Made by a program: the position numbers and the translations under genes. Of a stretch of 64,000 nucleotides of DNA, positions 25,018 to 55,337 are shown piece by piece. Below the pieces are notes generated by a model, which was not told where the DNA came from, searched no databases, and saw nothing but the letters and a program-made list of their open reading frames with translations. The stretch's first letter is position 1. The number at the start of each line of letters is the position of its first letter. The stretch lies in the NCBI RefSeq assembly GCF_000301075.1, contig NZ_JH932293.1, positions 1,399,673 to 1,463,672 of the forward strand. The letters are read 5' to 3'. Source of the DNA: Bergeyella zoohelcum ATCC 43767. Lineage in GTDB: Bacteria > Bacteroidota > Bacteroidia > Flavobacteriales > Weeksellaceae.

Positions 25018-25552
25018 AATTTGCCCTATAGGTGTTCCTGGTTATTTGATTCCCTTTATTAAAAAAGAAATGAATGGAGTTACCGTAATGAAAGATGAAG
25101 GGGATTTCACTGAAATAGAAGTGGATCCTAAATCTATTTTAGGCATGTTTCTTACAAGAAAAATCAGACCAGATTATAAAGTAAAATTTTATGCCCTTAC
25201 TTTATATTCTACTAAAGTGGGATATAAAAGAGCGTTTTCTTCTGAATTATTGGAATTTCAAAACTCTGCTCAATTTCGTGTGGATTTGAGTTTTGAAGAA
25301 TTGGATTCTTTTTATAAATTTTTAGATTGTAATTTTCGTTCATCATTTTATTTTTTTGTGAAAGGATACAGTCTAGGTTCTAATTCTCATCAAAAGATTA
25401 AAGAAGCTATTGAGAAGTTCTGTGATCATTATGAACTTCTTGAATATGGTTACTCTGAAAAACAGCTTCGTAATATGTTTAATCGTTTTCAAAAGAAAGG
25501 AGGTATTTACAAACTACATAAACACGAAAGGTTATCGGGTTTATTCATGTAA
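25010..25552 (+). CDS. Phage protein of unknown function
   Basis: The 180-residue protein starts ICPIGVPGYLIPFIKKEMNG and has SELLEFQNSAQFRVDLSFEELDSFYKFL. The C-terminal part EYGYSEKQLRNMFNRFQKK may be a helix-turn-helix-like helix pair. No known family comes to mind. It ends directly at the first copy of the tagged hairpin leader. Confidence 0.62.
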   Translation: MIRICPIGVPGYLIPFIKKEMNGVTVMKDEGDFTEIEVDPKSILGMFLTRKIRPDYKVKFYALTLYSTKVGYKRAFSSELLEFQNSAQFRVDLSFEELDSFYKFLDCNFRSSFYFFVKGYSLGSNSHQKIKEAIEKFCDHYELLEYGYSEKQLRNMFNRFQKKGGIYKLHKHERLSGLFM

Positions 25553-25596
25553 AATAGTGATGCACGATAAATTCCGTGCTCATTTTATTTTTGACA
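25552..25596 (+). promoter_or_regulatory. Tagged hairpin leader, copy 1
   Basis: AAATAGTGATGCACG is followed by an inverted repeat GCACG...CGTGC and then CATTTTATTTTTG. It lies 56 bases before the ATG at 25608. Four other copies occur at 30003, 33829, 43296 and 55282. Confidence 0.7.
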
Positions 25597-25607
25597 AAAA
25601 TTTGTCA

Positions 25608-27575
25608 ATGAGTAATTTCCGTTTGAATGCTCGTAAGCCTCAAAGAAATAACGCTGGATTAGGAACTCCGAAGGGAGAAATATTTTTATTATATCGAGAA
25701 GACATCGTATCAATGCCTGACATTGATAAAAGAGGGGTTCTCACTTCTGGTGATATAATGATTAAAGCAGGAAGGAGGTTTCATATCCTATATACTACGC
25801 CTACATCTCAAGTACATTATCGTGAAACAGAAGGGGATGTGGATTCTAGAGGTTGGAAAAAGAAAATAACAGGTCATTACCCTGGAGATGAATTAGAAAT
25901 AAATGAATTTGTAAAAAATAATCTCAATCAGGGTTTTATTGCTATCATAAAATCATGTGACTCTGAATTTATGAGAATCTATGGTTCTGTAAATAATCCT
26001 CTTTATTTTACTGGTTCATTTACAGATGACAATGATAAGAAGGGCTATGAGCTTACTTTTGAGCAAAATTTTGCAGATGAAAATCCTGTGCTTTTTTATC
26101 AAGGGAAAATTATTGTAGATGAAGATATTACTAGTTCTGGAGTAGAATATAATGATTTGTATGTAAGGCTGGATGGTAGCAATATATCTGAGCAGCATAA
26201 AATATTTTTAAAAGATATATTAGAAATAGGAAATTTACCTGAGAATATAGCAACAATAGATTCTGAAAATCAAATTAATAATGGTAATGTTTATACTAAA
26301 GAGCAGATAGAAGAAAAACTTAGAACTAAAGTAGCTTTTCCCACAAGATATGCTACGCCAGCAGGTTCCCTTTTAGGACTTGCTGGGCAACAGTTCTTAG
26401 TAGGCTATGAAGAGGAACTCAATACAGTGCCAGGGCAGAACGAACCTCATTATAATGTAGTGCGGTACAGCTTGGAAGATATTGGTAAGAATTTAGCAAA
26501 TTCCAATCTAAAAATCCCACAAGGACAAATCCGTGAGCTTGATGTCACGGGGGCGAAATTGAGGATTAAAGGTTTGGAGGACAAGTCTGCGGACGCATCT
26601 TTCAATAAAATGAAAGTTCAGAATGAGCTAGGAGAAGAGGCAGTCAGCAGTGGTAAACCCGTAATCGAGAGTCTGATGCAGGGCTTACCAAGTAATAAAC
26701 TGAGTAATAATTCTTACGACCCTGCTTATGCCGAATATTTGGTATTTAACCCTGCTACGGGGAAGATAGCTAAAAGCGATAAGCCTCAGATAATTACCAA
26801 TTTCACGGTGCCCAACTCAATAACAATTAATCACAATACCAATGTAGCCAATGTAAACTGGCTACCCAACCCGAGCTATCCACAAGATTTGACCGATACG
26901 CTGGATTTCGTTAAGAGTATTGATAGCATTGGATTTACGCCAGTATTGGCGAACGAGTTTGTCGTAAGGAAGCTCCCTAATAGTAAGTTTCCTTCTTCGG
27001 CGTCATCGTTTGTGATTCCTGATTTTGAATTTAGAAATGGCGAAATGCTTTACAATGGTAACGCAGTGCAGGTTCCCGCTGGATTCAGAGACTTAGACTA
27101 CCAAGCTAATAACGAAGAGAACAACGCGTTGATAAACATCTTTATCAACAAGGAATTACCTGTGGATAAAGATTGGGTACTTAGGTTTAGACTTTTCGGT
27201 TCTGATTTGTTAGGTGGGGTAAATAGTTTCTTTGGTTTCAGAGAAAGTGTTAATCTAGAACCTAATCATGATTTAATCAATGATGTTGTTTTTACAAGGT
27301 TTGGTAGTGGGGGATTCAGAAGTTCATTTGATTATAGGAATAATTCGAGATTAATAGCGAAAGATTTTTTAGATTTTAAGAACAATGACTTCTATATGAT
27401 AAAGAAGGGAAACATCGTAACGCTCTTTACTAGGAGCTATCACGATGGTATTTTGCAAATGGGGGCAATGGGTTATATAAATACTATGAAATACATGGTT
27501 TTCGGATTAAACTTAAATGCCATAATATTCTCCAAATTCTACATGAAGGATGTAAGCTATTGGATTAAAAATTAA
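25608..27575 (+). CDS. Tail fibre-like protein with tail-tube-type N-terminus
   Basis: The 655-residue protein has an N-terminal 165-residue domain homologous to the tube-like protein at 33011: both share NNAGL-TPK, K-G--F-I-Y-T--TQ, PG-E-E--F, N-GFI-I and LTFEQ. A middle part follows (EEKLRTKVAFPTRYATPAGS, RELDVTGAKLRIKGLEDKSA), and a C-terminal part resembling fibre or carbohydrate-binding domains (PDFEFRNGEMLYNG, LINDVVFTRFGSGGF). The start at 25608 (MSNFRLNARK) comes after the hairpin leader; an ATG inside the tag is rejected. Base composition rises in GC from about 26,330, as if the distal part was swapped. A receptor-binding or tail appendage role is inferred. Confidence 0.65.
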   Translation: MSNFRLNARKPQRNNAGLGTPKGEIFLLYREDIVSMPDIDKRGVLTSGDIMIKAGRRFHILYTTPTSQVHYRETEGDVDSRGWKKKITGHYPGDELEINEFVKNNLNQGFIAIIKSCDSEFMRIYGSVNNPLYFTGSFTDDNDKKGYELTFEQNFADENPVLFYQGKIIVDEDITSSGVEYNDLYVRLDGSNISEQHKIFLKDILEIGNLPENIATIDSENQINNGNVYTKEQIEEKLRTKVAFPTRYATPAGSLLGLAGQQFLVGYEEELNTVPGQNEPHYNVVRYSLEDIGKNLANSNLKIPQGQIRELDVTGAKLRIKGLEDKSADASFNKMKVQNELGEEAVSSGKPVIESLMQGLPSNKLSNNSYDPAYAEYLVFNPATGKIAKSDKPQIITNFTVPNSITINHNTNVANVNWLPNPSYPQDLTDTLDFVKSIDSIGFTPVLANEFVVRKLPNSKFPSSASSFVIPDFEFRNGEMLYNGNAVQVPAGFRDLDYQANNEENNALINIFINKELPVDKDWVLRFRLFGSDLLGGVNSFFGFRESVNLEPNHDLINDVVFTRFGSGGFRSSFDYRNNSRLIAKDFLDFKNNDFYMIKKGNIVTLFTRSYHDGILQMGAMGYINTMKYMVFGLNLNAIIFSKFYMKDVSYWIKN

Positions 27576-27581
27576 TTTTAT

Positions 27582-28468: not shown

Positions 28469-28470
28469 CC

Positions 28471-29476: not shown

Positions 29477-29478
29477 AC

Positions 29479-29922: not shown

Positions 29923-29950
29923 ATTAAATTCAGCTAATCTCATATCAAAG

Positions 29951-29984
29951 AAAAAGACTGACAAATAACTTTGTTAGTCTTTTT
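29951..29984 (+). terminator. Terminator after the lysis cassette
   Basis: AAAAAGACT (29951-29959) pairs with AGTCTTTTT (29976-29984); GACAAA and TTTGTT extend the stem. Confidence 0.75.
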
Positions 29985-30002: not shown

Positions 30003-30046
30003 CGAATAGTGAGGCATGGAGATGCAATAAGTAATATGATTTTTGC
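30003..30046 (+). promoter_or_regulatory. Tagged hairpin leader, copy 2
   Basis: GAATAGTGAGGCATGGAG contains the tag and a short hairpin GCAT-GGAG-ATGC. It stands between the lysis terminator and the protease start at 30050, 47 bases ahead of it. Confidence 0.6.
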
Positions 30047-30049: not shown

Positions 30050-30862
30050 ATGAATTTAATATCTGAAATCATTCGTGGTACTTGGTTGCTAGAGGGAGCT
30101 AATCTTCAGCATTATGAGAAAGTAGCAAAAGCTATATTAGAAAATGCTTCAGTAAAAAAAATTGAACCACAAAGCTATAGTTATATATCTAAACAGGAGA
30201 TAACCAGTAAAGGGGAAGTTATTGAAGTGGATAAAGTAGCAGTGGTCTCTATGATTGGAGAAATGACCAAATACGGAGGGGCTTGTTCTTTTGGTGCAAA
30301 TTATTATACCAATGAAATTTTAAAAGCAAACGCCAATCCAGAGATAAAGGGGATTATCTTGTCCATTGATGGACCTGGTGGAAATGCTGATGCTATTACC
30401 CTCTTTCAATCCATCAAGTCAAAAATCAAAAAACCTGTTATCGCTCTAGTAGATAGAGCATGTTCATTGCATTATTGGATTGCGTCTATGCTTAGTGATC
30501 ATATAATGTTAGGAAACGATTTTACTTCAGAGTGTGGTTCTATTGGTGCTATGATAGTTTTTCAAAAACCAAAAGATGAAATCATTATCATCAGACCTCC
30601 AGAATCTCAAGATAAAAATGAAGATGTTATTAATGCTTTGGCGGGGAATTATGAAGGGTTGGAAAAAAGACTTTCGATAATATCTCAAAGATTTATGAAT
30701 GATGTTAAAACTTATCGTCCACAGGTAAAAGATGAAGCTCTTCATGGTAAAACTTATTTAGCTAAAGAAGCTATTAAAGTAGGGTTGGCAGATAGTATAG
30801 GAGACATGGATAAAGCATATAATCTAGTATTAACACTATTTGAACTTAAACAATTAAAATAA
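30050..30862 (+). CDS. Prohead protease, S49 (SppA/ClpP-like)
   Basis: The 270-residue protein has the S49 pattern: ILSIDGPGGNADAITLFQSI near residue 103, the nucleophile region VDRACSLHYWIASMLSDHIM near 133, and SECGSIGAM near 163. In HK97-like phages such proteases remove scaffold parts from the capsid during maturation. It is directly followed, six bases later, by the capsid gene, which has a scaffold-like coiled coil in front as probable substrate. The typical SAG around the serine is replaced by CSLH, a variation that does not remove the serine. Confidence 0.82.
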   Translation: MNLISEIIRGTWLLEGANLQHYEKVAKAILENASVKKIEPQSYSYISKQEITSKGEVIEVDKVAVVSMIGEMTKYGGACSFGANYYTNEILKANANPEIKGIILSIDGPGGNADAITLFQSIKSKIKKPVIALVDRACSLHYWIASMLSDHIMLGNDFTSECGSIGAMIVFQKPKDEIIIIRPPESQDKNEDVINALAGNYEGLEKRLSIISQRFMNDVKTYRPQVKDEALHGKTYLAKEAIKVGLADSIGDMDKAYNLVLTLFELKQLK

Positions 30863-33828: not shown

Positions 33829-33874
33829 GTTAAATAGTGAGGCACGATAATAATCGTGCCTTTCCTTTTTTTGT
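33829..33874 (+). promoter_or_regulatory. Tagged hairpin leader, copy 3
   Basis: TTAAATAGTGAGGCACGAT is followed by a perfect stem GGCACGAT-AATA-ATCGTGCC and a T-rich stretch ending TTTTTTTG. The next ATG is at 33878, 47 bases after the tag. Confidence 0.75.
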
Positions 33875-33877: not shown

Positions 33878-34171
33878 ATGAGAAAAATAAACATCTACAA
33901 TGCTCTTCGTGCTATGCGAAAGCTTTCAAAAGAAAATATTCCCTTCAGTATTGAATTTATCTCCTGTAATAGAAGTGAAAAAAGTTCGGAAGGTTGGAAG
34001 CGTGTAGATAAAGCCATTCTCGTTCAAGGTTATAGGAAAGATCAAAGTGGTTACGCTATGAATCTAATCGCTTATGAAAATGCTGAAACAGGACAAAGAC
34101 GACATTTTTGGCTGCCTCTTTTAATGAAATTTAATGGAATAAAAATTACTTATGATAGAGTTCATAGATGA
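33878..34171 (+). CDS. Small phage protein before the portal gene
   Basis: The 97-residue basic protein (INIYNALRAMRKLSKENIPF, GQRRHFWLPLLMKFNGI) is not known to me. It overlaps the portal start by 20 bases and is translated from the third tagged leader. Conserved small proteins at this place occur in related prophages of Bacteroidota, so a head or connector accessory role is possible. Confidence 0.68.
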   Translation: MRKINIYNALRAMRKLSKENIPFSIEFISCNRSEKSSEGWKRVDKAILVQGYRKDQSGYAMNLIAYENAETGQRRHFWLPLLMKFNGIKITYDRVHR

Positions 34172-43270: not shown

Positions 43271-43295
43271 GACATTTGACCAACGATTTTTCTTA

Positions 43296-43341
43296 TTAAA
43301 TAGTGATGCACGGCAACTCAAATGAGTTGCCTTTTTTTGTG
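43296..43341 (+). promoter_or_regulatory. Tagged hairpin leader, copy 4
   Basis: TTAAATAGTGATGCAC is followed by a perfect stem GGCAACTC-AAAT-GAGTTGCC and eight T with a G, as in copy 3, but the stem bases differ fully. The ATG at 43356 is 58 bases after the tag. Confidence 0.75.
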
Positions 43342-43355
43342 TAAAATTTGAGATA

Positions 43356-44733: not shown

Positions 44734-44987
44734 TAGAAATCTTAAAAATGTTCGCACTGGTATTGCTCCAAAATGCCAGCTTTACAATGGTAAGCCGTGC
44801 GAGAAATAGCAATAGCTTAGGGTATAATGCCATTGCCAGTGTTATCAGCAATGGCATTTGGCTATTGGTTATTCGCGAAATAGTTCAGAATTTTGACCGA
44901 CCTATTATGATGATAGCCTATCTCATAGGCTCTGTATTAGGTTCTGTATCCATGCAATATATTTCAATGAATTTTTTTGAACGGTGA
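44730..44987 (+). CDS. Small membrane protein coupled to the PLD-like gene
   Basis: The 85-residue protein has two or three hydrophobic segments (MFALVLLQNASFTMVSRA, NAIASVISNGIWLLVIREIV, MMIAYLIGSVLGSVSMQY). It starts with ATGA overlap to the PLD-like gene. Its first 12 codons are found fused to a tail gene in remnant A. The function is unknown. Confidence 0.72.
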   Translation: MIEILKMFALVLLQNASFTMVSRARNSNSLGYNAIASVISNGIWLLVIREIVQNFDRPIMMIAYLIGSVLGSVSMQYISMNFFER

Positions 44988-45029
44988 GCCACCGTAGGCA
45001 ATTATTTTATCACTTTTTTTTAAAAAAAT

Positions 45030-45356
45030 ATGATAGCCACACTTCGTCTTGCCGATGAACAGCTGGAACAAATAGAGCAATTGGCTGGTGCAGGATATGC
45101 TCCTTGGCAAATAGCCATGTATCTAGATGTACCCAAAAAGGAATTTATGAAAGATTGGAACAATAAAGATTCCCTTATTCGTTATCATTATGACAGAGGT
45201 ATTTTGCTGGTAGATGCACAGGCTGGGATGAAATTGGCAGAAAATGCAATGGCGGGGAATATTACGGCTCATCAGCAATTGGAGAAAGTAAGAAGGGGGC
45301 AAAAATTAGATGCATTGAAAAAAAGGATTTTATATGGCGAAGAAGAGATTGATTGA
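45030..45356 (+). CDS. Terminase small subunit-like protein
   Basis: The 108-residue protein has a helix-turn-helix EQIEQLAGAGYAPWQIAMYL followed by DVPKKEFMKDW, and a helical C-terminus. Order before the terminase large subunit and the DNA-binding front suggest the small subunit that recognises phage DNA. It overlaps the next gene by 23 bases. Confidence 0.65.
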   Translation: MIATLRLADEQLEQIEQLAGAGYAPWQIAMYLDVPKKEFMKDWNNKDSLIRYHYDRGILLVDAQAGMKLAENAMAGNITAHQQLEKVRRGQKLDALKKRILYGEEEID

Positions 45357-45984
45357 CTATGAACTTAGTGATTTGTACGAATGGATAGAAGAAGGGCAGC
45401 CCTCAGCGGTTCCTGAAGCATTTGCCTCGTATGTCAGTCTGCTGGATAAAATCCGTGGTATGATGCTTCGGCACGACATTTATGGAAGTAAAGAAGCTAT
45501 TATAAAACATCTTATTGCCTTTGAACCAGAACTGAAAGGTAATAGATTAAAGGCTACACAATTCTATAATGAAGCCATAGAGTACTTCTATTCAGATAAT
45601 CAAATTTCCAAAGTAGCTTGGAGAAATCTCTATGCCGATGAACTAGATAAGGCATATAACCTAGCGATAGCTTTGGCCGAAAATACTGGAGATATAGAAA
45701 AGGCTTCCAAAATAAAAGAAAGAGCCGCCAAGATGCGAGGCTTGGACAAGGATGATCCTGTACAGCTTCCAGATGAAGCACTTCAAAAGCCATTTAAAAT
45801 ATACACCATGGAAATGGATAAGCATTTCGAACTGCCTAATGAAGATAGAAAAGCCATAGAACTATGGATAGACGAAAATACACCAGAACTTACAGAGAAA
45901 CACAGGGAAAGGCTGAAACAAGAATCTTTGATTTTACCAGTTAAACTTTTTCAGGATGAAGAAGAAAATCCACGCAAGGACTGA
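45334..45984 (+). CDS. Terminase-associated phage protein
   Basis: The 216-residue protein lies between small and large terminase genes with overlaps on both sides. It is helical (SKEAIIKHLIAFEPELKGNR, ADELDKAYNLAIALAENTGD) and resembles proteins found at the same place in Bacteroidota prophages. It may be part of the small subunit; the exact role is unknown. Confidence 0.65.
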   Translation: MAKKRLIDYELSDLYEWIEEGQPSAVPEAFASYVSLLDKIRGMMLRHDIYGSKEAIIKHLIAFEPELKGNRLKATQFYNEAIEYFYSDNQISKVAWRNLYADELDKAYNLAIALAENTGDIEKASKIKERAAKMRGLDKDDPVQLPDEALQKPFKIYTMEMDKHFELPNEDRKAIELWIDENTPELTEKHRERLKQESLILPVKLFQDEEENPRKD

Positions 45985-47671
45985 TTTTAAAGATGTAGAA
46001 GTGCGTTTTGCTACTTGGCTCAAGATGGTTACAGACCTGATGCAAGTTAAGAATCAATATCTTATTCTTGGGCGTGGTACGGGAAAAACGACCGACTATC
46101 TGGCTGAACGCTCCATGGACATCTGCTATGAGATGCCAGGATGCTACATTGCCATTGTGGGAGATACTTATACTAATTTGCTGAAGAATGTAGTACCTTC
46201 CCTTATTGAGGGTTGGAATAGAAAAGGTTGGGTGGAAGGAATTCATTATGTGGTGGATGAACCACCTCCTGCTCATTTTAAAAAACCGTACAAAGCCCCA
46301 CAAACTTATAAGCATACTATTTCTACATTTACGGGGAATTTCTTCAATTACATTTCCATGGATACGCCCAGCTCTGGAGCGGGAAACTCTTATCAGCATT
46401 TGATAGGAGATGAAACGAAGTATTTGGAAAAAAAGAGGATAGATAGACTTTTCCCCGCCTTGCGTGGAGATTCTACTATTTTTGGGCATTCTCCATATTA
46501 TTTGGGAGTTACATTTACTACTGACTATCCTAATGTGATTATGCCAGGGGAGTATGACTGGATTTTGGATAGGGAAAAGGAGATGAATGTGCAGCAGATG
46601 AAATATCTGCTACAGATTTCTTTGGAACTGAATGAAGCCAAAGCTGATGCGTTGAGATATGCACGGAAGAGAAACAAAGGATTGCTAAACAAGGCTAAAA
46701 GGAAAATAGCCAAGTTGTTGGAGCTTCATACGCGGTTAAGAAAGGATTCTACATTTTTTTACATCGCTTCATCGTTTGTTAATGTGGATGTGCTAAGGCT
46801 GGATTATTTTAAAACAGCCTTAGCATCACTAGGAGAAATAGAGTTTAACACTTCTATATTATCATTTAAGCCACAGGTGGAATCTGGAGACAAATTCTAT
46901 GTATCCTTTGAAAATAGGCATATATATGATGATGGTATTGACTTCCATTATTATCAGCGGTTCAGTACTGGAGACGATGCGGAACTAAACGCTGATGGTT
47001 TAAAGTACTGTAATCCGAATATACCATTGGAAATAGGGGTGGATTTCGGTTCACAATGTTCCATGGTAGTGGCTCAATCAAATAAATCTCTGATTAGAAT
47101 ACTCAAGAACTTCTACACTTTAGCTCCTGAATCATCGGAGCAACTTTGCTCTAAATTCTTGGAATTCTTTAAAAATCATAAGAAGAAAGTTATCGATTTA
47201 TATTTTGACCGCTCAGGAAATCAATATCAGAACCTAGGAAGGGATTGGGCATCGGAGATTAAGAAATTTTTAGAATTCGATGCCAATGGAGTTAAGACAG
47301 GGTGGTCTGTTGTTCTCAAAAGTAGAAATCAAGGAAATATAGAGCAACAAACAGAGTTTCAAATGGCAAAAGCGATGATGAACGGAACCTATAAAGGATT
47401 GCCTGAAATCCTCATTGATAAATATCAGTGCCGTGAACTTATTTCGTCTATGAATGTGGCCAAACAGATCGTGAAGCCCAACAAAAAGGGAGTAAAACAG
47501 TTGTTCAAAGATAAAAGTTCAGAGAAATTGCCACTAAAGAAACTGCCTATGTACTCTACAAATATGTCCGATGCTATGAAGTACTTGATATGCCGTAAAG
47601 AATGGCTGCAAATTCTGGGAGATCAAAAGAAAATTCAAGACTGGGGAACTCCTGAAGTTCTAGGGGATTGA
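45956..47671 (+). CDS. Terminase large subunit
   Basis: The 571-residue protein has an ATPase domain with Walker A ILGRGTGKTT near residue 38 and Walker B QHLIGDETKYL near 147, and a nuclease domain with the RNase H-like acidic strands IGVDFGSQCSMVV near 360 and VIDLYFDRSGNQYQ near 418. It pumps and cuts phage DNA. Unusually, the terminase follows the head genes. It begins inside the preceding gene (overlap 29 bases). Confidence 0.9.
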   Translation: MKKKIHARTDFKDVEVRFATWLKMVTDLMQVKNQYLILGRGTGKTTDYLAERSMDICYEMPGCYIAIVGDTYTNLLKNVVPSLIEGWNRKGWVEGIHYVVDEPPPAHFKKPYKAPQTYKHTISTFTGNFFNYISMDTPSSGAGNSYQHLIGDETKYLEKKRIDRLFPALRGDSTIFGHSPYYLGVTFTTDYPNVIMPGEYDWILDREKEMNVQQMKYLLQISLELNEAKADALRYARKRNKGLLNKAKRKIAKLLELHTRLRKDSTFFYIASSFVNVDVLRLDYFKTALASLGEIEFNTSILSFKPQVESGDKFYVSFENRHIYDDGIDFHYYQRFSTGDDAELNADGLKYCNPNIPLEIGVDFGSQCSMVVAQSNKSLIRILKNFYTLAPESSEQLCSKFLEFFKNHKKKVIDLYFDRSGNQYQNLGRDWASEIKKFLEFDANGVKTGWSVVLKSRNQGNIEQQTEFQMAKAMMNGTYKGLPEILIDKYQCRELISSMNVAKQIVKPNKKGVKQLFKDKSSEKLPLKKLPMYSTNMSDAMKYLICRKEWLQILGDQKKIQDWGTPEVLGD

Positions 47672-47702
47672 TAAATTTTAACAAAATTTTAACACTTGAA
47701 AA

Positions 47703-47734
47703 TTTGGAAATAAGGCGTAAACGCCTTATATTTG
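47703..47734 (+). promoter_or_regulatory. Promoter with 18-base palindrome in the spacer
   Basis: TTTG (47703-47706) and TATATTTG (47727-47734) match the -33/-7 boxes at 20-base spacing. The spacer holds TAAGGCGTAAACGCCTTA (47711-47728), a perfect inverted repeat ending on the -7 box, so a repressor bound there would block the promoter. It drives the helicase/PAPS-reductase-like/ParB operon. Confidence 0.72.
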
Positions 47735-47799
47735 CAGTATAAATAATTCAATAACTATTTAAAACTCCGGAGCAGGAGGATAAAGTCAGCGAACGCAAA

Positions 47800-48255
47800 A
47801 TGAAAACTTTTTTAATTCAGTCGCCTTGTTACAGAGCTAACGGACATTATGGTTCTTATTATTCAATTGCCTTTACAGATAATGAAGGCAATGTAATTAA
47901 AGGATACGGAGACCACATTTCCGAATTATCTTACGGAGTAAAAAATGTATATGAAGCAGAAGGCACTTCTTTCTCAGATTCGGATAGATTTATAACCATA
48001 GAAGAAGTAGAAGTAGATGAAGCAGAATTTGAAACGTTTCTTGAAAAAAGACGAGAATACAACAGATTATGTGAAGAAGTAAACAGAAAAAGAGATAAGC
48101 GTTTCGGCACTAACACATACAAGTATGTATATGGGCAAAAAAAAGGGCAAAAAGAAAGAGAGCAAGAGTTAAGAGATTGGGAATTAGAGAATAGAGTCCC
48201 TTATGTCGATTACTACGATTTTCTAAAAAGCGTTAAAAATGGCAACTTGGGATAA
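47800..48255 (+). CDS. Protein of unknown function, first gene of the helicase operon
   Basis: The 151-residue protein starts MKTFLIQSPCYRANGHYGSY and has a coiled charged middle (EFETFLEKRREYNRLCEEVN). An AGGAGGATAAAG stretch upstream is a rather good ribosome binding site for this phylum. No family is known to me. It overlaps the next gene by 17 bases. Confidence 0.65.
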   Translation: MKTFLIQSPCYRANGHYGSYYSIAFTDNEGNVIKGYGDHISELSYGVKNVYEAEGTSFSDSDRFITIEEVEVDEAEFETFLEKRREYNRLCEEVNRKRDKRFGTNTYKYVYGQKKGQKEREQELRDWELENRVPYVDYYDFLKSVKNGNLG

Positions 48256-48670
48256 AATATTCATAAACTCCCAAAATATTATTTCAGAGACTGACCGGGC
48301 ATTTCTAATAAAAATGCCCAATAGGTCTCAATATAAGGGATATGCATTTTGGCATCCGAAGAAATTAGTTCGGTTACAAGGAGGAAAGGGCTATCATATA
48401 ACTTTTTCGTTTACAGAAGATTTTGAATTTCGGGTAATTCTTTACGGGCAAGGAAGATTTAATAGTAAAACCATTATTCGGCAAGAGTACCTAACTCCGA
48501 ATGAAATGCGAGAAGCCTTCGGGGTAGTAGATAAAGAGGTAAACCGAGCTGTTGAGCAAGAGACCTTGAAAATTATAGAAAAAGAAACGGTAGAAGTGGA
48601 AATAACCCACCACGAACCCGAGAGGGTAGAGACTATTTCAGATAACAGCATAAAAGATTTAAAGAAATGA
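48239..48670 (+). CDS. Protein of unknown function in the helicase operon
   Basis: The 143-residue protein has ETDRAFLIKMPNRSQYKGYA, FWHPKKLVRLQGGKGYHITF, and an acidic C-terminus. A small beta fold is likely. It overlaps the helicase gene by four bases. No motif is recognised. Confidence 0.65.
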   Translation: MATWDKIFINSQNIISETDRAFLIKMPNRSQYKGYAFWHPKKLVRLQGGKGYHITFSFTEDFEFRVILYGQGRFNSKTIIRQEYLTPNEMREAFGVVDKEVNRAVEQETLKIIEKETVEVEITHHEPERVETISDNSIKDLKK

Positions 48671-49890
48671 GGCTCTTACCCCAACAAGAAAAAGCCCTTG
48701 CCCACCGCTCTGACTGGAAGGTGGGGGCTTTATTTATGAAAATGGGTACAGGCAAAACCCGTGTTACCGTTGAGTTGGTCAATCAAGTAGAAGATTTAGA
48801 TTTAGTAGTATATGTCGCTCCCCTGCGGATAATTCAACCGAAAGAACCAAATATTCCGAAGATTTCCGATGAAGTACAGAAATGGGGCGGCTTCAAAGCC
48901 AAAGAAGTGATTTACATCGGCGTAGAAACTATTGGGCAGTCGGATAGGCAATTTTTGCAGCTGTTCAAAAAAATATCTACCACTTGGAAGACTTTCCTTG
49001 TCGTGGACGAGAGTATCAAAATTAAGAACATCGGTGCCAAAAGAACCCAACGGTTGCTGCAACTATCGGAAATGGTAGAGTTCAAATTGATTTTGAACGG
49101 TGAACCCGTAACCCGTGATTTATTGGATTTGTACCCGCAGATGAATTTCCTTGACCCTCGCATTTTGCGAATGAGTTTACCAGAATTTAAAAATACTTTT
49201 TGCAGATACACCACTGTCACCAAGCGTTTCGGTGGGTATAAGGAGTATTCCAAAGAGTTCATTACAGGATACGAAAACATTGATTATCTGTACTCACTCA
49301 TTGGGCAATATGTATTTGAGTCCGATTTGGATTTACAAATTCAGCAGATTTACGAAGATGTTAGCTACTCCATTAGTGATGAAGATAAGCAGGAGTATTA
49401 CCGATTGAAAACGGAATATTTAGACGATGAAAAGCTGATGATGATGAATAATAATATTTTCTTGGAACTTACGCAGAAAATGCAACACGGCTACTGCTGT
49501 TCCGAAGAGAAATTTGAAGCGGTCAAAGAGTGGTTCGGGAAATATCCCGAAGAAAAAAGCATAATTTTCGTGAAATATATCCGCTCAATGGAAGAATGCA
49601 AACGGAGATTTCCGAAAGCTACCGTACTGAATTACAAGACGGGAAGCTACGGACTGAATCTACAGCATCTACCATACACGGTGTATTTTGACAAGACTTG
49701 GGATTATGGCGATGTTGCCCAATCCAAACACAGGAATTATCGTGTTGGGCAAGAGCAAGACTGCAGATATTTGAGCCTTACTGGAGATGTCGGGCTTGAA
49801 ACCTTGATTTCTGAAAATAATAAGAAGAAAATTGGAGTTTCGGAATATCTGAAGAAAATTAGTAGAGAACAATTAAGAAAAGTGTTATGA
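48667..49890 (+). CDS. SNF2-like DNA helicase/translocase
   Basis: The 407-residue protein is a compact SF2 enzyme: motif I MKMGTGKTRVTVEL near residue 25, the DEAD-type box as VVDESIKIKN near 112, motif III LNGEPVTRDLLDLYPQMNFL, and motif VI QSKHRNYRVGQ near 352, as in SNF2 proteins. It lacks a nuclease domain. Phages often carry such helicases in replication or recombination clusters. Here it is coupled (ATGA at both ends) to genes for an unknown protein and PAPS-reductase-like and ParB-like proteins. Confidence 0.85.
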   Translation: MRLLPQQEKALAHRSDWKVGALFMKMGTGKTRVTVELVNQVEDLDLVVYVAPLRIIQPKEPNIPKISDEVQKWGGFKAKEVIYIGVETIGQSDRQFLQLFKKISTTWKTFLVVDESIKIKNIGAKRTQRLLQLSEMVEFKLILNGEPVTRDLLDLYPQMNFLDPRILRMSLPEFKNTFCRYTTVTKRFGGYKEYSKEFITGYENIDYLYSLIGQYVFESDLDLQIQQIYEDVSYSISDEDKQEYYRLKTEYLDDEKLMMMNNNIFLELTQKMQHGYCCSEEKFEAVKEWFGKYPEEKSIIFVKYIRSMEECKRRFPKATVLNYKTGSYGLNLQHLPYTVYFDKTWDYGDVAQSKHRNYRVGQEQDCRYLSLTGDVGLETLISENNKKKIGVSEYLKKISREQLRKVL

Positions 49891-50759
49891 AAAAATATTT
49901 GGTTTCCAATAGTATTCCCGAAAGAATGCATTTTATAAAAAAAGTAAAACCATTCGGGAAGCGATTTGCGGTTTACAACAAAATACCGTTAAGGGGTTTG
50001 GAAAGTTATTTTGATAAATTCATAAAGCTGGATGAACTTTATGACGATCAAACCTTTTTAAAACTTTTAGGGCAAGTGGATAGCAAAACGACTTTATTTT
50101 TGATTGATTTAGGGTTAGATTATTGCTCATTCCAAGCGAATTACATCAAGCCTTACACGAAGTTGCATCCGCTTTCGCAACAAGCGAAAGAAACTTTTAT
50201 CATTGACGGGTTTGCATTCTACAACACGGAAAAAGCAATTTATCGCCCATTTTTGTACATCGACCCAAATATCATAGGAAGCTCAGTACAAGAATTTTAT
50301 AACACGGGTGCATATAAAGATTTTGATGGGAATCAAGTCGAAAACTATTATAAAAAAATTGCTCCGTATATGCAGATTTCTACCCAACCGCTGGAATTGG
50401 AGGTTGTGAAATATTCGCCTACAAAAAAAGAAAAGGCAGAATATGAAAAACTGAAAAAACAGATTATTATGGTGGATAAATTCAGCAAACCGAAAGTAAT
50501 CCGGATGCTTATCGATTACATTGAAAATACCGAGAGCAAAAAGAAAGCGATTAAAAAAGAAATTGATGCGGACGCCATTCAAATCATTCGCAACGATGCG
50601 AATGGCAGGAAAAATTTATACAAAGAAATTCTGTTGAAAAATCCTAAAAAAGTAATTTTTTACAGTTCTGAATATTACGGAGCTGACGAGATAGAATTGT
50701 CTTTGACCTTTGGAGCTTTGGAACGACATAACAAACTTATAGCGTTACTCAATGGCTAA
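49887..50759 (+). CDS. Protein of unknown function between helicase and PAPS-reductase-like genes
   Basis: The 290-residue protein starts KKYLVSNSIPERMHFIKKVK and has LFLIDLGLDYCSFQANYIKP, AFYNTEKAIYRPFLYIDPNI and a basic C-terminal helix region with NTESKKKAIKKEIDADAIQI. I do not recognise it. Overlaps of four and eight bases with both neighbours suggest it works with them. Confidence 0.7.
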   Translation: MKKYLVSNSIPERMHFIKKVKPFGKRFAVYNKIPLRGLESYFDKFIKLDELYDDQTFLKLLGQVDSKTTLFLIDLGLDYCSFQANYIKPYTKLHPLSQQAKETFIIDGFAFYNTEKAIYRPFLYIDPNIIGSSVQEFYNTGAYKDFDGNQVENYYKKIAPYMQISTQPLELEVVKYSPTKKEKAEYEKLKKQIIMVDKFSKPKVIRMLIDYIENTESKKKAIKKEIDADAIQIIRNDANGRKNLYKEILLKNPKKVIFYSSEYYGADEIELSLTFGALERHNKLIALLNG

Positions 50760-51882
50760 AAAAATATACAATAGAGATAAAAATGTGTATCAAGCTGCCT
50801 TGGAGCGGATGGAATATATTTTTGATAACTACAAAAATGTAGTGGTTTCGTTGTCGGGCGGGAAAGACAGCACGATTTGTACTTACTTGGCTCACGAAGT
50901 AGCTCAAAAAAAAGGAAGAAAATTTTATTTGTTCTATCTTGACCAAGAAATTGAATACAGCAGTACTATTGATTTCATTGATAAAATGATGAAATTGCCT
51001 ACAGTTATTCCGCTGTGGTTTCAAATTCCGTGTATGCTTACGAACACCAGTTCGATGAGTCAAAACGAAATAGACCCTTGGAATCCCGAAAAAAAATCGG
51101 TTTGGATTCGTGGACAAAAAATAAAGGCAACCAAAGAAATTACTTGGGATGTTTCCGATGTGCCGTATCAATTTCCTGAAAAGAAAATGTACGGATTTTA
51201 CGGATTAGTACAATGTATGGAGGCTTTGTTCCGTAATGCAGAATCAACAGCACAAATTATTGGGTTACGAGCCGATGAAAGCCTTGACCGATTCAGAGCT
51301 GTAACAAAGAATCCCGGCGTAAAAGGCATACCTTGGTCAACCAAAGGAAATCATCACATCAAATTTTATCCGATATACGATTGGAACTTCCGAGACATTT
51401 GGATTTACTTGGCAAAGAATAATTTGGACTACAACAAGATGTACGATTACTTTTGGCTCAAAGGTTATTCGCCTAATAAAATGCGATTATCCAATCTATT
51501 GCATGAAAAAGCCTACGAGTGCATTGCCGATCTGCAGGAGTTTGAACCGAAACTATTTGACCGAATGATTGACAGATGTCAGGGAGTTTCCACAGCACAG
51601 GAATACGCAGGGCGTGGTGGCGGAATTTACAAAGCTGAGAAATTGCCCAAAAACTTTGCTACTTGGATCGAATATCGGGATTATCTACTGGACACACTGC
51701 CTAATCAGGAACACGCCGATATTTTTCGAAAACGATACTCCAAGCAATATCAGAATGATTATGTTGTGAAGCAACAGGTAAATAGGATACTTATTTACGA
51801 CATTCACAACTTCAAGAAAATAAACAATTTTGAATTTGACCCAGCAGAAAAAATACGAGAAAAATGGATGCAAATTTTATAA
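50752..51882 (+). CDS. PAPS reductase-like protein, DUF3440/IbrA type
   Basis: The 376-residue protein has the PP-loop of ATP-using sulfur-transfer and reductase enzymes, VVSLSGGKDSTICTYLAHEV near residue 30, then YLDQEIEYSSTIDFI, IIGLRADESLDRFRAV near 170 and FYPIYDWNFRDIWIYLAKNN near 205. The ending with LLHEKAYECIADLQEFEPKL is the DUF3440-like part seen in IbrA. It lacks the CxxC Fe-S ligands of assimilatory enzymes. IbrA-type proteins are found beside ParB-like IbrB in phages and islands, as here. DndC of DNA phosphorothioation is related, but DndD/DndE partners are missing. The substrate is unknown. Confidence 0.82.
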   Translation: MAKKIYNRDKNVYQAALERMEYIFDNYKNVVVSLSGGKDSTICTYLAHEVAQKKGRKFYLFYLDQEIEYSSTIDFIDKMMKLPTVIPLWFQIPCMLTNTSSMSQNEIDPWNPEKKSVWIRGQKIKATKEITWDVSDVPYQFPEKKMYGFYGLVQCMEALFRNAESTAQIIGLRADESLDRFRAVTKNPGVKGIPWSTKGNHHIKFYPIYDWNFRDIWIYLAKNNLDYNKMYDYFWLKGYSPNKMRLSNLLHEKAYECIADLQEFEPKLFDRMIDRCQGVSTAQEYAGRGGGIYKAEKLPKNFATWIEYRDYLLDTLPNQEHADIFRKRYSKQYQNDYVVKQQVNRILIYDIHNFKKINNFEFDPAEKIREKWMQIL

Positions 51883-52445
51883 AAATAAATACTAAAGAAG
51901 ATTTCCTAAAATGGAAGTCCAACCAATGTATATATGAAGAAAATGGGATAAAATTCCCTGTTTTGAACGCCGTTTTGGTTCATAAATCAATGATTTTACC
52001 CAACGATTACAACCCTAATCACGTAGCAAAGGATAAAATGGAGTTACTGAAAACCTCCATCGTTGAAAATGGTTTTGCTTTCGGGATTGTCGCTATTTTT
52101 GACAATGAAATCGACAAATTTGTTATTATTGACGGGTATCACCGTGATGTTATCACAGGGAAAAAGTGGCTTGATCTTACTTACAAGCCATTAGTTATTC
52201 TTGACCATTCTATGGAAAAAAGATTAGCAGCAACGGTACAATTCAACAAAGCTCGGGGCGTTCACAAAATCGACTTGAATGCTGAACTGGTTAAGCGAAT
52301 GATAGAACTCGGTATGGAGGATTACGACATTTGTAAACAGTTAGGCATAGATGCTGACGAGTTTTTACGACTAAAACGAAACGTAAAAATCGCAGAAATA
52401 TATAAGGATTTAGAATTTTCAAATTCTTGGGAAGTAGGTAATTAA
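51864..52445 (+). CDS. ParB/Srx-domain protein, IbrB type
   Basis: The 193-residue protein has the ParB/sulfiredoxin fold: NDYNPNHVAKDKMELLKTSI, the conserved DGYHR motif near residue 90 in FVIIDGYHRDVITGKKW, and a following helix-turn-helix with MEDYDICKQLGIDADEFLRL. It overlaps the PAPS-reductase-like gene by 19 bases, and the two form the IbrA/IbrB pair. IbrAB were described as regulators of immunoglobulin-binding Eib proteins in E. coli; in phages the role is not clear. The domain can be an NTPase or DNA-binding module. Confidence 0.82.
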   Translation: MDANFIKINTKEDFLKWKSNQCIYEENGIKFPVLNAVLVHKSMILPNDYNPNHVAKDKMELLKTSIVENGFAFGIVAIFDNEIDKFVIIDGYHRDVITGKKWLDLTYKPLVILDHSMEKRLAATVQFNKARGVHKIDLNAELVKRMIELGMEDYDICKQLGIDADEFLRLKRNVKIAEIYKDLEFSNSWEVGN

Positions 52446-52469
52446 ATTAGAAAAAATGGAAATAAAATT

Positions 52470-53438
52470 ATGTTATCTATTTTCAAAAAAAAACAAGACA
52501 TAGTACCTCTATTAGAGGTACTTATCTCAGATATAAAGAATAAAAAAATATTGACTTTGAAAAACAAACCTTATAAAGATAATTCCTTTCACTCGGGGCG
52601 TACTGCTTTGGTAAATCTCAAAGAATTTTTATCTGACGCCCCTTTGTATATCAATGATTTTACCACTGATTTCTTAAAAGGATTTGGTATGTTTATGAAT
52701 GAAAAAGGATTGTCAATGAATAGCGTTACCAACAATGTAAAGTCTCTTATTACGCTAGTAGATAGATTGATAATAGAGCGTAGAATTACTGTAGGCAAAG
52801 ATTTCAAAGTGCCTACTATCAATATGCCTAAGGAAATTACAACGGCAGTTTTCACAACAGAAGCTGAGATAGATTTACTTGCTAATATGGATCTCAGCCT
52901 TACTGAAAAATTATGTAGAGTGCGGGATGTGTATATCATTCAGGCTTACACAGGATTGCGTTTTTCTGATATGATAAAAGTAATACAATCACCACAATCC
53001 TATTATAAAGAGCAAGATGGAACAGCTTATTTTTGTTTAAAATCAACAAAAACAGAGCAAGATTTATTTATTCCGTTAAAAAAAATAGTTGTAGATATTC
53101 TTGTTCGGAGAAATTTTAAATTTGGAAAACCTTTCACATTACATCATTATAATAAAAGACTAAAAGAATTATTTAAGTCTGTAGGAATAAATGAAACCAT
53201 AGTAAAATATATTACCATAGGAGGCGAACGAAAAGAAATTCATTTGGAAAAATGGAAAATGATTTCCAGCCATACGGCAAGAAGAAGTTTTGCAACAAAT
53301 GCCTATTTAAAAGGGGTACCTACATCTTTTGTTAGAAAAATCACAGGCCATACCACAGAAGAAAGTTTGCTCCGATACATAAGAGCAAATAATCATGAAA
53401 TTGCGTTAAAATCGAAAGAATATGATTTTTTTAAGTAA
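52470..53438 (+). CDS. Tyrosine recombinase in the accessory region
   Basis: The 322-residue protein has a SAM-like N-terminal domain (SFHSGRTALVNLKEFLSDAP, LSMNSVTNNVKSLITLVDRL) and catalytic residues Arg in YTGLRFSDMI, HxxR in SHTARRSFATNAYL, His in ITGHTTEESL and Tyr in LLRYIRANN. It differs from the integrase at 63180 and from the enzyme at 17466, so it belongs to the accessory cassette. It follows the ParB gene by 24 bases and may have brought the cassette in. Confidence 0.85.
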   Translation: MLSIFKKKQDIVPLLEVLISDIKNKKILTLKNKPYKDNSFHSGRTALVNLKEFLSDAPLYINDFTTDFLKGFGMFMNEKGLSMNSVTNNVKSLITLVDRLIIERRITVGKDFKVPTINMPKEITTAVFTTEAEIDLLANMDLSLTEKLCRVRDVYIIQAYTGLRFSDMIKVIQSPQSYYKEQDGTAYFCLKSTKTEQDLFIPLKKIVVDILVRRNFKFGKPFTLHHYNKRLKELFKSVGINETIVKYITIGGERKEIHLEKWKMISSHTARRSFATNAYLKGVPTSFVRKITGHTTEESLLRYIRANNHEIALKSKEYDFFK

Positions 53439-53460
53439 TTTTGCCGGAAATAATATCGTA

Positions 53461-53688
53461 ATGGCAACAGAAGAAATTATAAAGAAGCGACAAAAAGTCG
53501 CCGAAATTATTAGAAATAAAAGAAAAAGCATGGGATTAACACAAGAAGAACTTGCCGAAAAGGTGGGCTTCAATACGAGTACTATATTAAGGATAGAAAC
53601 TTGTAAATTTTCACCCAATGCAGACCAATTGTATCTAATCGCCAAAGTATTGGACATAGAAATCTCCTTTGATGGAGAAAAGATATAA
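53461..53688 (+). CDS. XRE-family helix-turn-helix regulator
   Basis: The 75-residue protein is a simple HTH: MGLTQEELAEKVGFNTSTIL with RIETCKFSPNADQLYLIAKV. It starts 23 bases after the recombinase stop, with an earlier in-frame ATG overlapping that gene judged less likely. It could bind the palindrome at 47711-47728 or act on the recombinase gene; this is not shown. Confidence 0.82.
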   Translation: MATEEIIKKRQKVAEIIRNKRKSMGLTQEELAEKVGFNTSTILRIETCKFSPNADQLYLIAKVLDIEISFDGEKI

Positions 53689-53701
53689 ATGAATTCCTCT
53701 G

Positions 53702-53742
53702 CTCGGCTGAGACGCCTAAGCGGCGAAGCCGAAATTTTTTTT
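53702..53742 (+). terminator. Terminator after the HTH gene
   Basis: TCGGCT (53703-53708) with inner CGCC pairs with GGCG and AGCCGA (53727-53732), followed by eight T-rich bases. Confidence 0.78.
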
Positions 53743-53747
53743 GAGCA

Positions 53748-53777
53748 TAAAAAAAGCCGTAAAAAAAATACGGCTTT
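53748..53777 (-). terminator. Terminator of the RadC-like gene
   Basis: AAAGCCGTA (53753-53761) pairs with TACGGCTTT (53769-53777). On the minus strand a T run follows. It overlaps the stop at 53776. Confidence 0.7.
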
Positions 53778-54213
53778 AAATTTGTCCATTGTCTGCAAAA
53801 CTATAATAATCATCAAGCGTCAAAATGATATGGTCTAATAATTTAATATTCATAAGTTCGCCAATGTCTTTAATCTTTTTAGTTAGCAAAATATCTTCCC
53901 TGCTTGGTTCTAATTTTCCCGATGGATGGTTGTGGCAAACTATAATTGCGGTTGCCAAACATTGAAAAGCGGGTGCAAAAATCAATCTGACATCGACTAC
54001 CGTGGAAGTGATTCCCCCTTGTGAAATTTTACGCCATCCAATGATTTCATTAGAATTATTAAGATAGAGAGCATAAAAAGACTCGTAAATTTCCAAATCT
54101 TCATAAATATTTCGAAATGCTTTAATTGCATCTTCATCATTTGTTATGCCGTATTTAAATGAGGATTCAGTTGTTTTATCTAGGTGGATTTTAATTTCCT
54201 GTAAATAAGTCAT
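53776..54213 (-). CDS. RadC-like JAB/MPN domain protein
   Basis: The 145-residue protein has the RadC core with the metal motif VCHNHPSGKLEPSREDILLT near residue 93 and LLDHIILTLDDYYSF near 128. It lacks the N-terminal HhH part of chromosomal RadC. Short RadC proteins are frequent on mobile elements of Bacteroidota; the function is not settled (DNA processing or de-ubiquitinase-like). It stands on the minus strand in an otherwise plus-strand phage region. Confidence 0.85.
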   Translation of the reverse strand: MTYLQEIKIHLDKTTESSFKYGITNDEDAIKAFRNIYEDLEIYESFYALYLNNSNEIIGWRKISQGGITSTVVDVRLIFAPAFQCLATAIIVCHNHPSGKLEPSREDILLTKKIKDIGELMNIKLLDHIILTLDDYYSFADNGQI

Positions 54214-54225
54214 TTGGGTGTATTT

Positions 54226-54447
54226 TTAAAATTGATAATCTGCAAAATCTGAATGTTCATTGAAATAATTGAGAAATAAATCTATAATTCTCAGAGGAAG
54301 TTGTTCCTCTCTTATCCTTTCATTTTTTGCTATTTTCTTAAAATAGTGATAATCTACCCAATTGAAATATTTGGAAAATCCTAATTTTTTAAGCTCTTGA
54401 AAAACAATGTCAGAAGTTTTTTGTAGTTTTGTTGCTGTAGAATTCAT
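54226..54447 (-). CDS. Small protein of unknown function
   Basis: The 73-residue protein (TATKLQKTSDIVFQELKKLG, FSKYFNWVDYHYFKKIAKNE) is helical, basic to neutral. It precedes the RadC-like gene by 12 bases. The leader AGTAAAGTAAACAAAATGA is nearly identical to that of the gene at 54937. Confidence 0.6.
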   Translation of the reverse strand: MNSTATKLQKTSDIVFQELKKLGFSKYFNWVDYHYFKKIAKNERIREEQLPLRIIDLFLNYFNEHSDFADYQF

Positions 54448-54481
54448 TTTGTTTACTTTACTTATTTAACGAATGGATTTT

Positions 54482-54519
54482 TAACCCTCCCACTCTGCCA
54501 AGTGAGAGGGTTCGTTTTT
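54482..54519 (+). terminator. Hairpin with T run on the plus strand
   Basis: AACCCTCCCACT pairs with AGTGAGAGGGTT, with one mismatch, and is followed by CGTTTTT on the plus strand. On the minus strand the T run is missing, so it may protect against read-through from the left. Confidence 0.5.
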
Positions 54520-54937
54520 ATATTTGGAAAGTCGATATTTTTATTTCGCTTTCTCTTATCATTTCATCCAACTTATCAGAACAAATATCAAGCAGTTCAC
54601 TAATGATAGTCCCGTTGGTTATCTCAAAACTTTCGTTATTATCGTTCATAATCATTAATTTTTCCTTAAACCCATCTCTAGAAACCATAAAGGCAGTAAG
54701 AGTGTCCCTTTTTTCTTTCAAAAATTTGTGCTTATCAGCCATTTTTTGAAACACTTCAAGGTTTTTAATTCTTTGTTCTGCGTTCCCTGAGTTTAAAATA
54801 GCGTTTAATTCTATTTTTTTGGTTTCAAACTCTTGTTTTGTGCTTTTTGCCGTTACATTTGTTTTTGTTGTTTTAGCGTTTTCTGTGGCAGTTGCTACTG
54901 TCTTCACAACTTTGCCATTTTGTCCTATAGTACTCAT
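54518..54937 (-). CDS. Protein of unknown function on the reverse strand
   Basis: The 139-residue protein starts MSTIGQNGKVVKTVATATEN with a Thr/Ala/Lys-rich front, then a coiled coil (GNAEQRIKNLEVFQKMADKH, KFLKEKRDTLTAFM) and an acidic C-terminus. The start is set at 54937, downstream of the promoter at 54957-54988. No family is recognised. Confidence 0.62.
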   Translation of the reverse strand: MSTIGQNGKVVKTVATATENAKTTKTNVTAKSTKQEFETKKIELNAILNSGNAEQRIKNLEVFQKMADKHKFLKEKRDTLTAFMVSRDGFKEKLMIMNDNNESFEITNGTIISELLDICSDKLDEMIRESEIKISTFQI

Positions 54938-54956
54938 TTTGATTACTTTACTAATG

Positions 54957-54988
54957 TAAAGATACGAAAAAATAAAATGATATACAAA
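54957..54988 (-). promoter_or_regulatory. Promoter of the reverse-strand gene at 54937
   Basis: On the minus strand TTTG (54988-54985) and TATCTTTA (54964-54957) fit the -33 and -7 boxes at 20-base spacing; the last base of the -7 box deviates. Confidence 0.58.
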
Positions 54989-55021
54989 TATATACCTGTT
55001 AAATAATACTTTTTTATACAT

Positions 55022-55337
55022 TTTAGAAAAATTCTAAACAAGTCTTTTTTACTATATCATTTTTTATTTTTTTCAGATAAAAAAATAAATTTAAAAATTA
55101 AGATACTGAAAATCAACAATCAAACCTATCGTGTAAATTTATACGATAGGTTTGATTGCGTTCCCCTCCGACGCCGCTCCCTGACCTTATTGCCGTTGCC
55201 TTGTTTCTTGCTTATATAGAAATATGGCAATAGCCTTTAAACCCCACCATTTAAATAAAAGCACCACAGGTGCGATTCCGCTGAAATAGTGAGGCATAAC
55301 CATTGGGCAACGATGCTTTACTTCGTACAAAAAAATA
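55022..55337. other. Non-coding stretch before the tape measure gene with long hairpin
   Basis: No gene is seen. AATCAAACCTATCGT (55118-55132) pairs perfectly with ACGATAGGTTTGATT (55143-55157), loop 10 bases; with no T run after it. A locally GC-rich piece follows (GCGTTCCCCTCCGACGCCGC at 55158 on). It probably marks the right border of the inserted accessory region. Confidence 0.5.
55282..55326 (+). promoter_or_regulatory. Tagged hairpin leader, copy 5
   Basis: TGAAATAGTGAGGCATAACC keeps the tag; the stem is weaker, GCAT (55293 on) with ATGC near 55314. The tape measure ATG at 55338 is 54 bases from the tag. Confidence 0.55.

Follow-up and report, generated by a model that had tools for sequence, protein, structure and literature searches.

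The window analysed here is a 64,000-nucleotide (nt) stretch of Bergeyella zoohelcum ATCC 43767 (contig NZ_JH932293.1, positions 1,399,673 to 1,463,672 of the forward strand), and it contains a prophage whose proteins match PHROGs for an integrase, an endolysin, a head maturation protease, a terminase and a tape measure protein. Five copies of a 13-base tag are found in the window, all on the plus strand, and all five precede genes of this one prophage, at its late operons. The exact sequence AAATAGTGAKGCA is present at 25552–25564 (copy 1), 33832–33844 (copy 3), 43298–43310 (copy 4) and 55284–55296 (copy 5), and a version with one mismatch, GAATAGTGAGGCA, at 30004–30016 (copy 2). An earlier note on this DNA had recognized the five copies, with positions that were off by 0–3, and had read them as an RNA-level control element or a processed leader; the comparisons presented here suggest that the tag is most likely a DNA promoter element and not an RNA leader.

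The first base of copy 1 is the last base of the stop codon of a gene (25010–25552, plus strand) that encodes a 180-amino acid (aa) protein of phrog_21888, the candidate regulator considered below. Copy 2 precedes the gene of the head maturation protease (phrog_53, 30050–30862), copy 3 that of a 97-aa protein, p97 (33878–34171), located before the portal-region gene, copy 4 that of a 271-aa protein (43356–44171), the first in a run of genes leading to the terminase, and copy 5 the tape measure gene (55338–59684), all of them on the plus strand. The distance from the first base of the tag to the start codon is 46–58 nt across the five copies. The 12-mer AATAGTGAKGCA, which is the tag minus its first base, occurs five times in the window when 0.03 occurrences are expected, and none of 100 shuffles reaches five. 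In the entire genome (2.33 Mb) it has six forward copies; the sixth (C1:719998) is not part of the prophage and lacks a TTTG at the corresponding place. A tag search with two mismatches found 10 sites against 5.5 expected, and six of 100 shuffles reach 10, so the enrichment is unclear; these counts were discarded as too loose. A search with a spaced pattern that allowed three mismatches (16 found, 18.3 expected) was also discarded as too loose, its last four bases being one position off.

A -7-like box at a fixed distance from the tag

When the five copies are aligned on the tag, all of them share T at offsets 38 and 39, T or C at 40, G at 41 and A at 46, while the few further columns that agree are at chance level. 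The motif TT[TC]G ends 41 nt past the first base of the tag in five of five copies, with an A at the expected +1 position in each; for comparison, in the 60-nt stretches that precede 46 further genes in the prophage region, TT[TC]G is found at 31 of the 2622 positions. This box, at its fixed distance, fits the Bacteroidota -7 element TAnnTTTG, and the T-rich stretch that had been described as part of the leader corresponds to it. The gap between the tag and the 8-base box is 21 nt. The -33 TTTG is absent; in its place the five copies have GGCA or TGCA, and many relatives AACA or CACA.

In Flavobacterium johnsoniae, 4–5 nt separate the -7 element from the transcription start according to PMC6847099, and the predicted starts were placed by that distance. 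The box of copy 1 (TATTTTTG, 25586–25593) predicts a start at 25598, upstream of the ATG at 25608, and that of copy 2 (GATTTTTG, 30038–30045) a start at 30050, which is the A of the protease start codon, so that the transcript would be leaderless. Copies 3 and 4 have the same box, TTTTTTTG, at 33866–33873 and 43332–43339, respectively; the former predicts a start at 33878, again on the A of the start codon and hence a leaderless transcript, and the latter a start at 43344, before the ATG at 43356. In copy 5 the box (TTACTTCG, 55318–55325) predicts a start at 55330, with the ATG at 55338. All five boxes are on the plus strand, and the predicted starts precede the start codons by 10, 0, 0, 12 and 8 nt in copies 1–5. 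The tag of copy 1 would therefore lie at about -46 to -34, and the transcripts are predicted to begin downstream of both the tag and the hairpin. The tag and its spacing are read directly from the DNA, and it is from them that we infer promoters and starts. A scan of 43100–55400 for E. coli-type promoters (41 found, 42.6 expected) was set aside, as that consensus is not informative for this host.

Lineage-specific tags in related phages

Of 320 genomes from the same family, 13, its own included, have a match to the portal-region protein, at 14 places in all. The relatives used for comparison were 13 prophage regions from the 12 other genomes together with the phages laban6-1, 6H and Ingeline; in addition, viral contigs were gathered via the portal protein and the candidate regulator. 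These sequences were scanned for shared words upstream of TT[TC]G before gene starts, at the offset of the window tag ±1 and later over a wider range, which gave lineage-specific words such as AATAGTTTGGCA, TTAGYTTGGCA, TGTAACA, GCGTCACA and ATGTCACA, among others. When applied to the opposite strand, the wider-range scan left six of seven sequences without a pair, and 6H had one. The scan of 11 viral loci found words in five (L080, L083, L084, L089 and L091), and the remaining loci were read by eye.

Five homologous junctions were then counted in 28 phages, the window included: after the regulator gene and before the protease gene, p97, g4 and the tape measure gene. The count left out L004 and L006, which have no word set, and tape measure matches weaker than 1e-30. 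The lineage tag is present in 96 of the 108 readable junctions, and the G of the box lies exactly 29 nt after the tag core in 74 of these 96 sites and 28 or 30 nt after it in five. Without the near-duplicates vL082, vL084, vL087 and G213, the box is at 29 in 66 of the remaining 85 tagged sites and at 28 in five, and no other offset is found more than twice; the pooled box over the 85 sites is TATTTTTG, with an A 5 nt after the box G in 67 of them. Where the box is at 29, 11 of 18 protease sites and 10 of 13 p97 sites have their predicted start on the A of the start codon, which would leave no room for a leader there.

In a motif-free test, the largest number of junctions that share one exact 8-mer was compared with the number reached when gene starts were drawn at random 300 times. 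All five junctions are readable in 16 phages; in 12 of these, 3–5 junctions share an 8-mer, a level attained by 0–10 of the 300 random sets, and the shared 8-mer is part of the tag in 11 of these 12 and a T-run word in G185a. Among phages with fewer junctions only vL091 was informative (three of three). The genome G185 carries two prophages, on contigs C7 and C2, with different tags (TGTAACA and GCGTCACA), and since both tags occur within one genome, the host alone cannot set the specificity, which suggests that a phage protein should read the tag. On these comparisons, the window tag is one lineage's version of a wider element. Furthermore, they support the part of the earlier note that held the element to be common to the late operons and probably to set late gene expression in this phage group.

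Several observations, however, count against this promoter layout. The full TAnnTTTG is found in copy 1 only, and the boxes of copies 2–5 depart from it. In the relatives, 12 of the 108 junctions have no tag, and the box is elsewhere or absent in 17 of the 96 tagged sites (G211, G213, G214, Ingeline and others). The lineage words behind the 74 sites with the box at 29 were written after the sequences had been viewed, and at sites with two matches preference went to a match with the box at 29; moreover, some of the words have only 6–7 letters, and single matches to them may be due to chance. No shared word was found in L004 and L005. Finally, the 8-mer test failed in G213 (296 of 300 random sets), G214 (31 of 300), G311 (298 of 300) and Ingeline (27 of 300), in the case of G311 because its tags vary.

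Candidate reader of the tag

Iterated profile searches with 44 window proteins against 16 phages found 15 proteins to be present in 16 of 16, and the product of 25010–25552 is one of them. All of these 15 sit in late operons except for an integrase and the products of 25010–25552 and 24616–25017, and the perfect score of the integrase is probably due to cross-matches among integrases. As for the position of the candidate gene, all of 27 phages have a tag within the stretch that begins 40 nt before the stop codon of the 25010–25552 homolog (gp042 in laban6-1) and ends 110 nt after it, and at 23 of these 27 sites the box is at 28–30. The predicted structure of the product has a mean predicted local distance difference test (pLDDT) score of 76 and a predicted template modelling (pTM) score of 0.72, with an alpha/beta N-terminal part and C-terminal helices at residues 127–140, 143–146 and 150–163. 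As a suggestion only, which comes from the model, these helices are arranged like a helix-turn-helix, and the weak structural matches of the C-terminal part (Z ≤4.8) include the DNA-binding proteins TnpE, GerE and SaFadR.

Changes in the protein were also compared with changes in the tag. In nine closer relatives, tag similarity tracks the last helix (r 0.88, partial 0.81) and not the N-terminal part (r 0.60, partial -0.13), where the helix limits were chosen after the model had been seen and the correlations carry no probability value. A telling single case is vL085, in which the N-terminal part has 56% identity to the window protein, its nearest of six compared, whereas the last helix is 72% identical to that of a TGTAACA phage and 28% to that of the window, and the tag of vL085 is TGTAACA. 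Taken together, the product of 25010–25552 is, by somewhat better than even odds, the activator of the late promoters.

On the other side of the balance, 14 other proteins, that of 24616–25017 included, are also present in all 16 phages, and four of the 27 regulator-gene sites have no box. The candidate has no Pfam match at E values up to 1, and Foldseek searches of PDB and a viral library gave none at 0.001 or better (best viral row 1.0e-3, TM score 0.15). The best VIA-align Z scores, 5.7 for the whole candidate and 4.8 for its C-terminal part, are within noise. Over 22 phages tag similarity correlates with both protein parts (partial 0.35 and 0.29), which common descent alone could produce. 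By sequence, three PDB matches were found (best E 0.57), the NCBIfam comparison gave chance-level matches only, and among the PHROG profiles only phrog_21888 (function unknown) matches, in 14 of 15 members, apart from weak single matches. A LuxR-family regulator of laban6-1 was also considered as the activator, and was rejected as it is present in only 4 of 16 phages.

Proposed mechanism and alternative readers

With a probability of roughly 0.8, the tags are the upstream halves of late promoters that are recognized by a phage-encoded reader. The prophage would then have five coordinated late promoters in a temperate phage related to Duneviridae (the Flavobacterium phages laban6-1 and 6H and the Cellulophaga phage Ingeline). 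In each promoter, the place at which the host sigma factor normally reads the -33 TTTG would be taken by a phage-specific tag (about -46 to -34), with a host-type -7 box 21 nt further on. A phage-encoded activator would bind the tag, replace or remodel the missing -33 contact and thereby turn on the late operons together. The activator would be encoded by 25010–25552, which immediately precedes the first late promoter, and tag and reader would change together between phage lineages. The change of the tag between lineages and the place of the candidate gene are visible in the sequences, and from them we infer this particular activator and its mode of action.

The reader of the same promoters could instead be a phage sigma factor or a different phage protein such as the product of 24616–25017, an assignment that is possible but clearly less favoured. 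This second small gene (24616–25017, plus strand) overlaps the candidate regulator gene, is conserved in 16 of 16 phages and adjoins the regulator gene in most of them, which makes it an alternative candidate or a partner, and the fixed distance between tag and box would suit recognition of the sigma type. However, the host-type -7 box argues for the host sigma factor, no sigma-like Pfam match was found among 10 prophage proteins, and in laban6-1, 6H and Ingeline about 2–9 kb separate the 24616–25017 homolog from the regulator gene.

It is unlikely that the tag is instead the operator of a phage repressor that silences the same promoters in the lysogen. A repressor could also block a site at -46 to -34, and the inverted tag-like arms in copies 1, 3 and 5 could provide a second half-site. 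Nevertheless, with the -33 element missing and several poor -7 boxes, these promoters should need help, and the helix-turn-helix gene at 16032–16493 was found in none of the other 15 phages.

Hairpins and probable terminators

Hairpins near the tags had led to the proposal of an RNA element in which structure rather than sequence is kept. Folding of the stretch from tag to start codon gives z scores of -4.1, -0.4, -4.5, -3.3 and -2.4 for copies 1–5 when compared with shuffles, so four of the copies fold better than their shuffles, and copy 2 does not. Copies 3 and 4 have a terminator-like hairpin with a T tract between tag and box (33839–33862 and 43312–43331, both on the plus strand), and these hairpins look like terminators packed into the promoter. 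In copy 1 a weaker hairpin (25556–25584, plus strand), followed by a T-rich stretch, is a possible nested terminator of the regulator operon, the z score of -4.1 referring to the whole stretch. Copy 2 has a terminator-like hairpin upstream of the tag (29951–29984, plus strand), and copy 5 has a long inverted repeat about 130 nt upstream, together with a hairpin between tag and box that has no clean T tract. A terminator classifier reported a nested GC-rich stem with a T tract in copies 3 and 4 only, and none in copies 1, 2 and 5; a separate scan of 43100–55400, which covers copies 4 and 5, also gave the hairpin of copy 4.

The position of the hairpins also varies among the relatives. At some sites, such as g4 of G031 and 6H, a hairpin precedes the tag and its T run leads into it; at others, including p97 and g4 of the window, G309 and G311 and p97 of several GCGTCACA phages, the hairpin is located between tag and box; and at further sites it is missing while the tag stays. 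Most of these hairpins are probably terminators of the preceding operon, which would explain their shifting position. In the proposed mechanism, some of these intrinsic terminators would be packed between the tag and the -7 box, with the T tract doubling as part of the box and the hairpin remaining outside the new mRNA.

It is very unlikely that the tag and hairpin form a transcribed RNA element in the 5' leader of the late mRNAs, serving as an attenuator or as a processing or stability element. Such an element could draw on the four copies that fold better than shuffles and on the clean stems and T tracts of copies 3 and 4, and transcripts that read through from upstream would include both tag and hairpin; in these, the hairpin may have an RNA role. 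Against it, RNAalifold finds no common pairs in the five copies, Rfam has no match in the window at the gathering score, and the hairpin is upstream, nested or absent in relatives while the tag stays. In addition, the exact distance between the tag and the -7 box and the predicted starts downstream of the tag, on the start codon itself at the 11 protease and 10 p97 sites noted above, count against it. The claims of a conserved structure and of an RNA-level or processed leader are thus not borne out. As for chance or a mobile-repeat artefact, to which the two-mismatch pattern (10 found, 5.5 expected) could be ascribed, it is practically negligible given the exact 12-mer (5 against 0.03 expected), the same layout with other words in related phages and the 12 of 16 phages that pass the 8-mer test.

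At the p97 sites of G083, G078, G185b, G227 and G241 (for example, L043 at about 19640–19680), the tag forms a nested hairpin with its own near reverse complement, and the tag and the 5' arm of the terminator are the same bases. The classifier listed these five hairpins (at about -13 to +21) and did not class them as nested, so its 'none' class is too large.

Comparison with known systems

Phage Mu C and Mor are activators of late or middle promoters with poor upstream elements; the present promoters differ from theirs in the host and the box, and the candidate has no Pfam match. Another parallel is offered by the middle promoters of phage T4, which retain the -10 box and have a phage box instead of the -35 element (PMC2988021). 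By sequence, the layout resembles that of the MotA promoters, with a host -10-type box kept, a phage element in place of the upstream sigma contact and a phage DNA-binding protein, here a candidate. In T4, however, the element is centred at -30, 12 ± 1 bp from the -10 box, and serves middle genes through MotA with AsiA (PMC2988021), while here it lies at -46 to -34, 21 nt from a Bacteroidota -7 box, before late genes, and the candidate is without a Pfam match. In the staphylococcal phage Phi13, the ltr gene is located upstream of the late promoter P23 that Ltr activates (PMC13123087), much as the candidate regulator gene lies directly upstream of a predicted late promoter. That source describes one late promoter with four direct repeats, as opposed to about five dispersed promoters with one tag each in the present case. 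No sequence match to the T4 or Ltr regulators turned up in the searches, which included no direct comparison with them.

The predicted promoters are also like those of the Bacteroidota primary sigma factor (-33 TTTG / -7 TAnnTTTG) in their -7 box and its distance to the predicted start, and unlike them in that the -33 element is replaced by a lineage-specific tag; in F. johnsoniae the -33 element is weak anyway (PMC6847099). Similarly, the hairpins of copies 3 and 4 are like intrinsic terminators and unlike them in being nested inside a promoter. The main text of PMC8776804, which describes Ingeline, contains no occurrence of promoter, late gene or terminator, and no description of late-gene activation in temperate Bacteroidota phages was found in the open-licence literature.

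If the proposed mechanism is correct, the promoter layout could be used for genome scans, and the candidate activator comes with clear predictions. Pairs of reader and word that may not overlap would be useful as inducible promoters for Bacteroidota. It would also explain most of the hairpins in ordinary terms, and would call for caution in reading nested terminators as RNA control elements.

Possible extension to other Bacteroidota phages

In Ingeline, a Bacteroides phage, a Porphyromonas phage and Bacteroidales contigs, TGTCCTTT is found in place of the tag. On the forward strand, T[TC]G with its G as the 36th base from the first T of TGTCCTTT is present at 5 of 7 sites in L071, 3 of 4 in L092, 3 of 3 in L093, L006 and L028, and 5 of 5 in L030, which overlaps L006; of four reverse-strand TGTCCTTT sites, none has T[TC]G at that place. 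The distance from TGTCCTTT to the box is the same as that for the 7-letter tag cores of other lineages. The first TGTCCTTT of the Bacteroides phage, a site that has no box, closely follows a gene annotated as a transcriptional regulator. One Bacteroides protein compared with the profile of the candidate family gave an unconvincing probability of 2.5%, and the same comparison with ten relatives aligned gave 66% over 140 columns, a collinear but weak match that is suggestive only. Weighing against the layout in this group, 18 loci that carry relatives of the Bacteroides regulator contain 12 TGTCCTTT sites, of which only three have the box, for which reason the extension of the layout to the TGTCCTTT phages is tentative; the other nine sites lie at most about 55 nt from the end of the gene and have no box. 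Distant candidate homologs are found at nine loci from other families and orders, and the downstream sequence of six of them did not establish a promoter at a fixed distance; at one such homolog locus, L075, TGTCCTTT is found about 130 nt downstream.

In its broadest form, the hypothesis would be that temperate phages of Bacteroidota share one late switch, of which no description was found in the literature searched, and the chances of this are about even. This switch would depend on a family of small activators (phrog_21888, perhaps with distant relatives in Bacteroidales), each of which would read its own 7–9-bp word, placed at a constant spacing from the host -7 box where a -33 element would otherwise be. 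Word and reader would diverge together and give rise to switches that are insulated from each other, even when two prophages share a cell, and the mRNAs of several capsid genes would begin at the start codon.

Other features of the window

The segment at 11050–15365 has the appearance of the right-hand end of another, related prophage: 11410–15365 matches 60050–63989 at 74%, and 11050–11409 matches 44407–44766 at 96%. Between the terminase and RadC genes lies a cargo-like segment (47800–53438) with genes for an SNF2-like helicase, a PAPS-reductase/DUF3440 protein and a tyrosine integrase of its own. Most of this segment has homologs in G241 only, among the 13 fetched relatives, and it shows weak partial matches to models of defence proteins such as DrmD, BrxP and DndC. 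In addition, the gene at 40824–41735 encodes an RNase T-type exonuclease domain that is fused to a BRCT domain.

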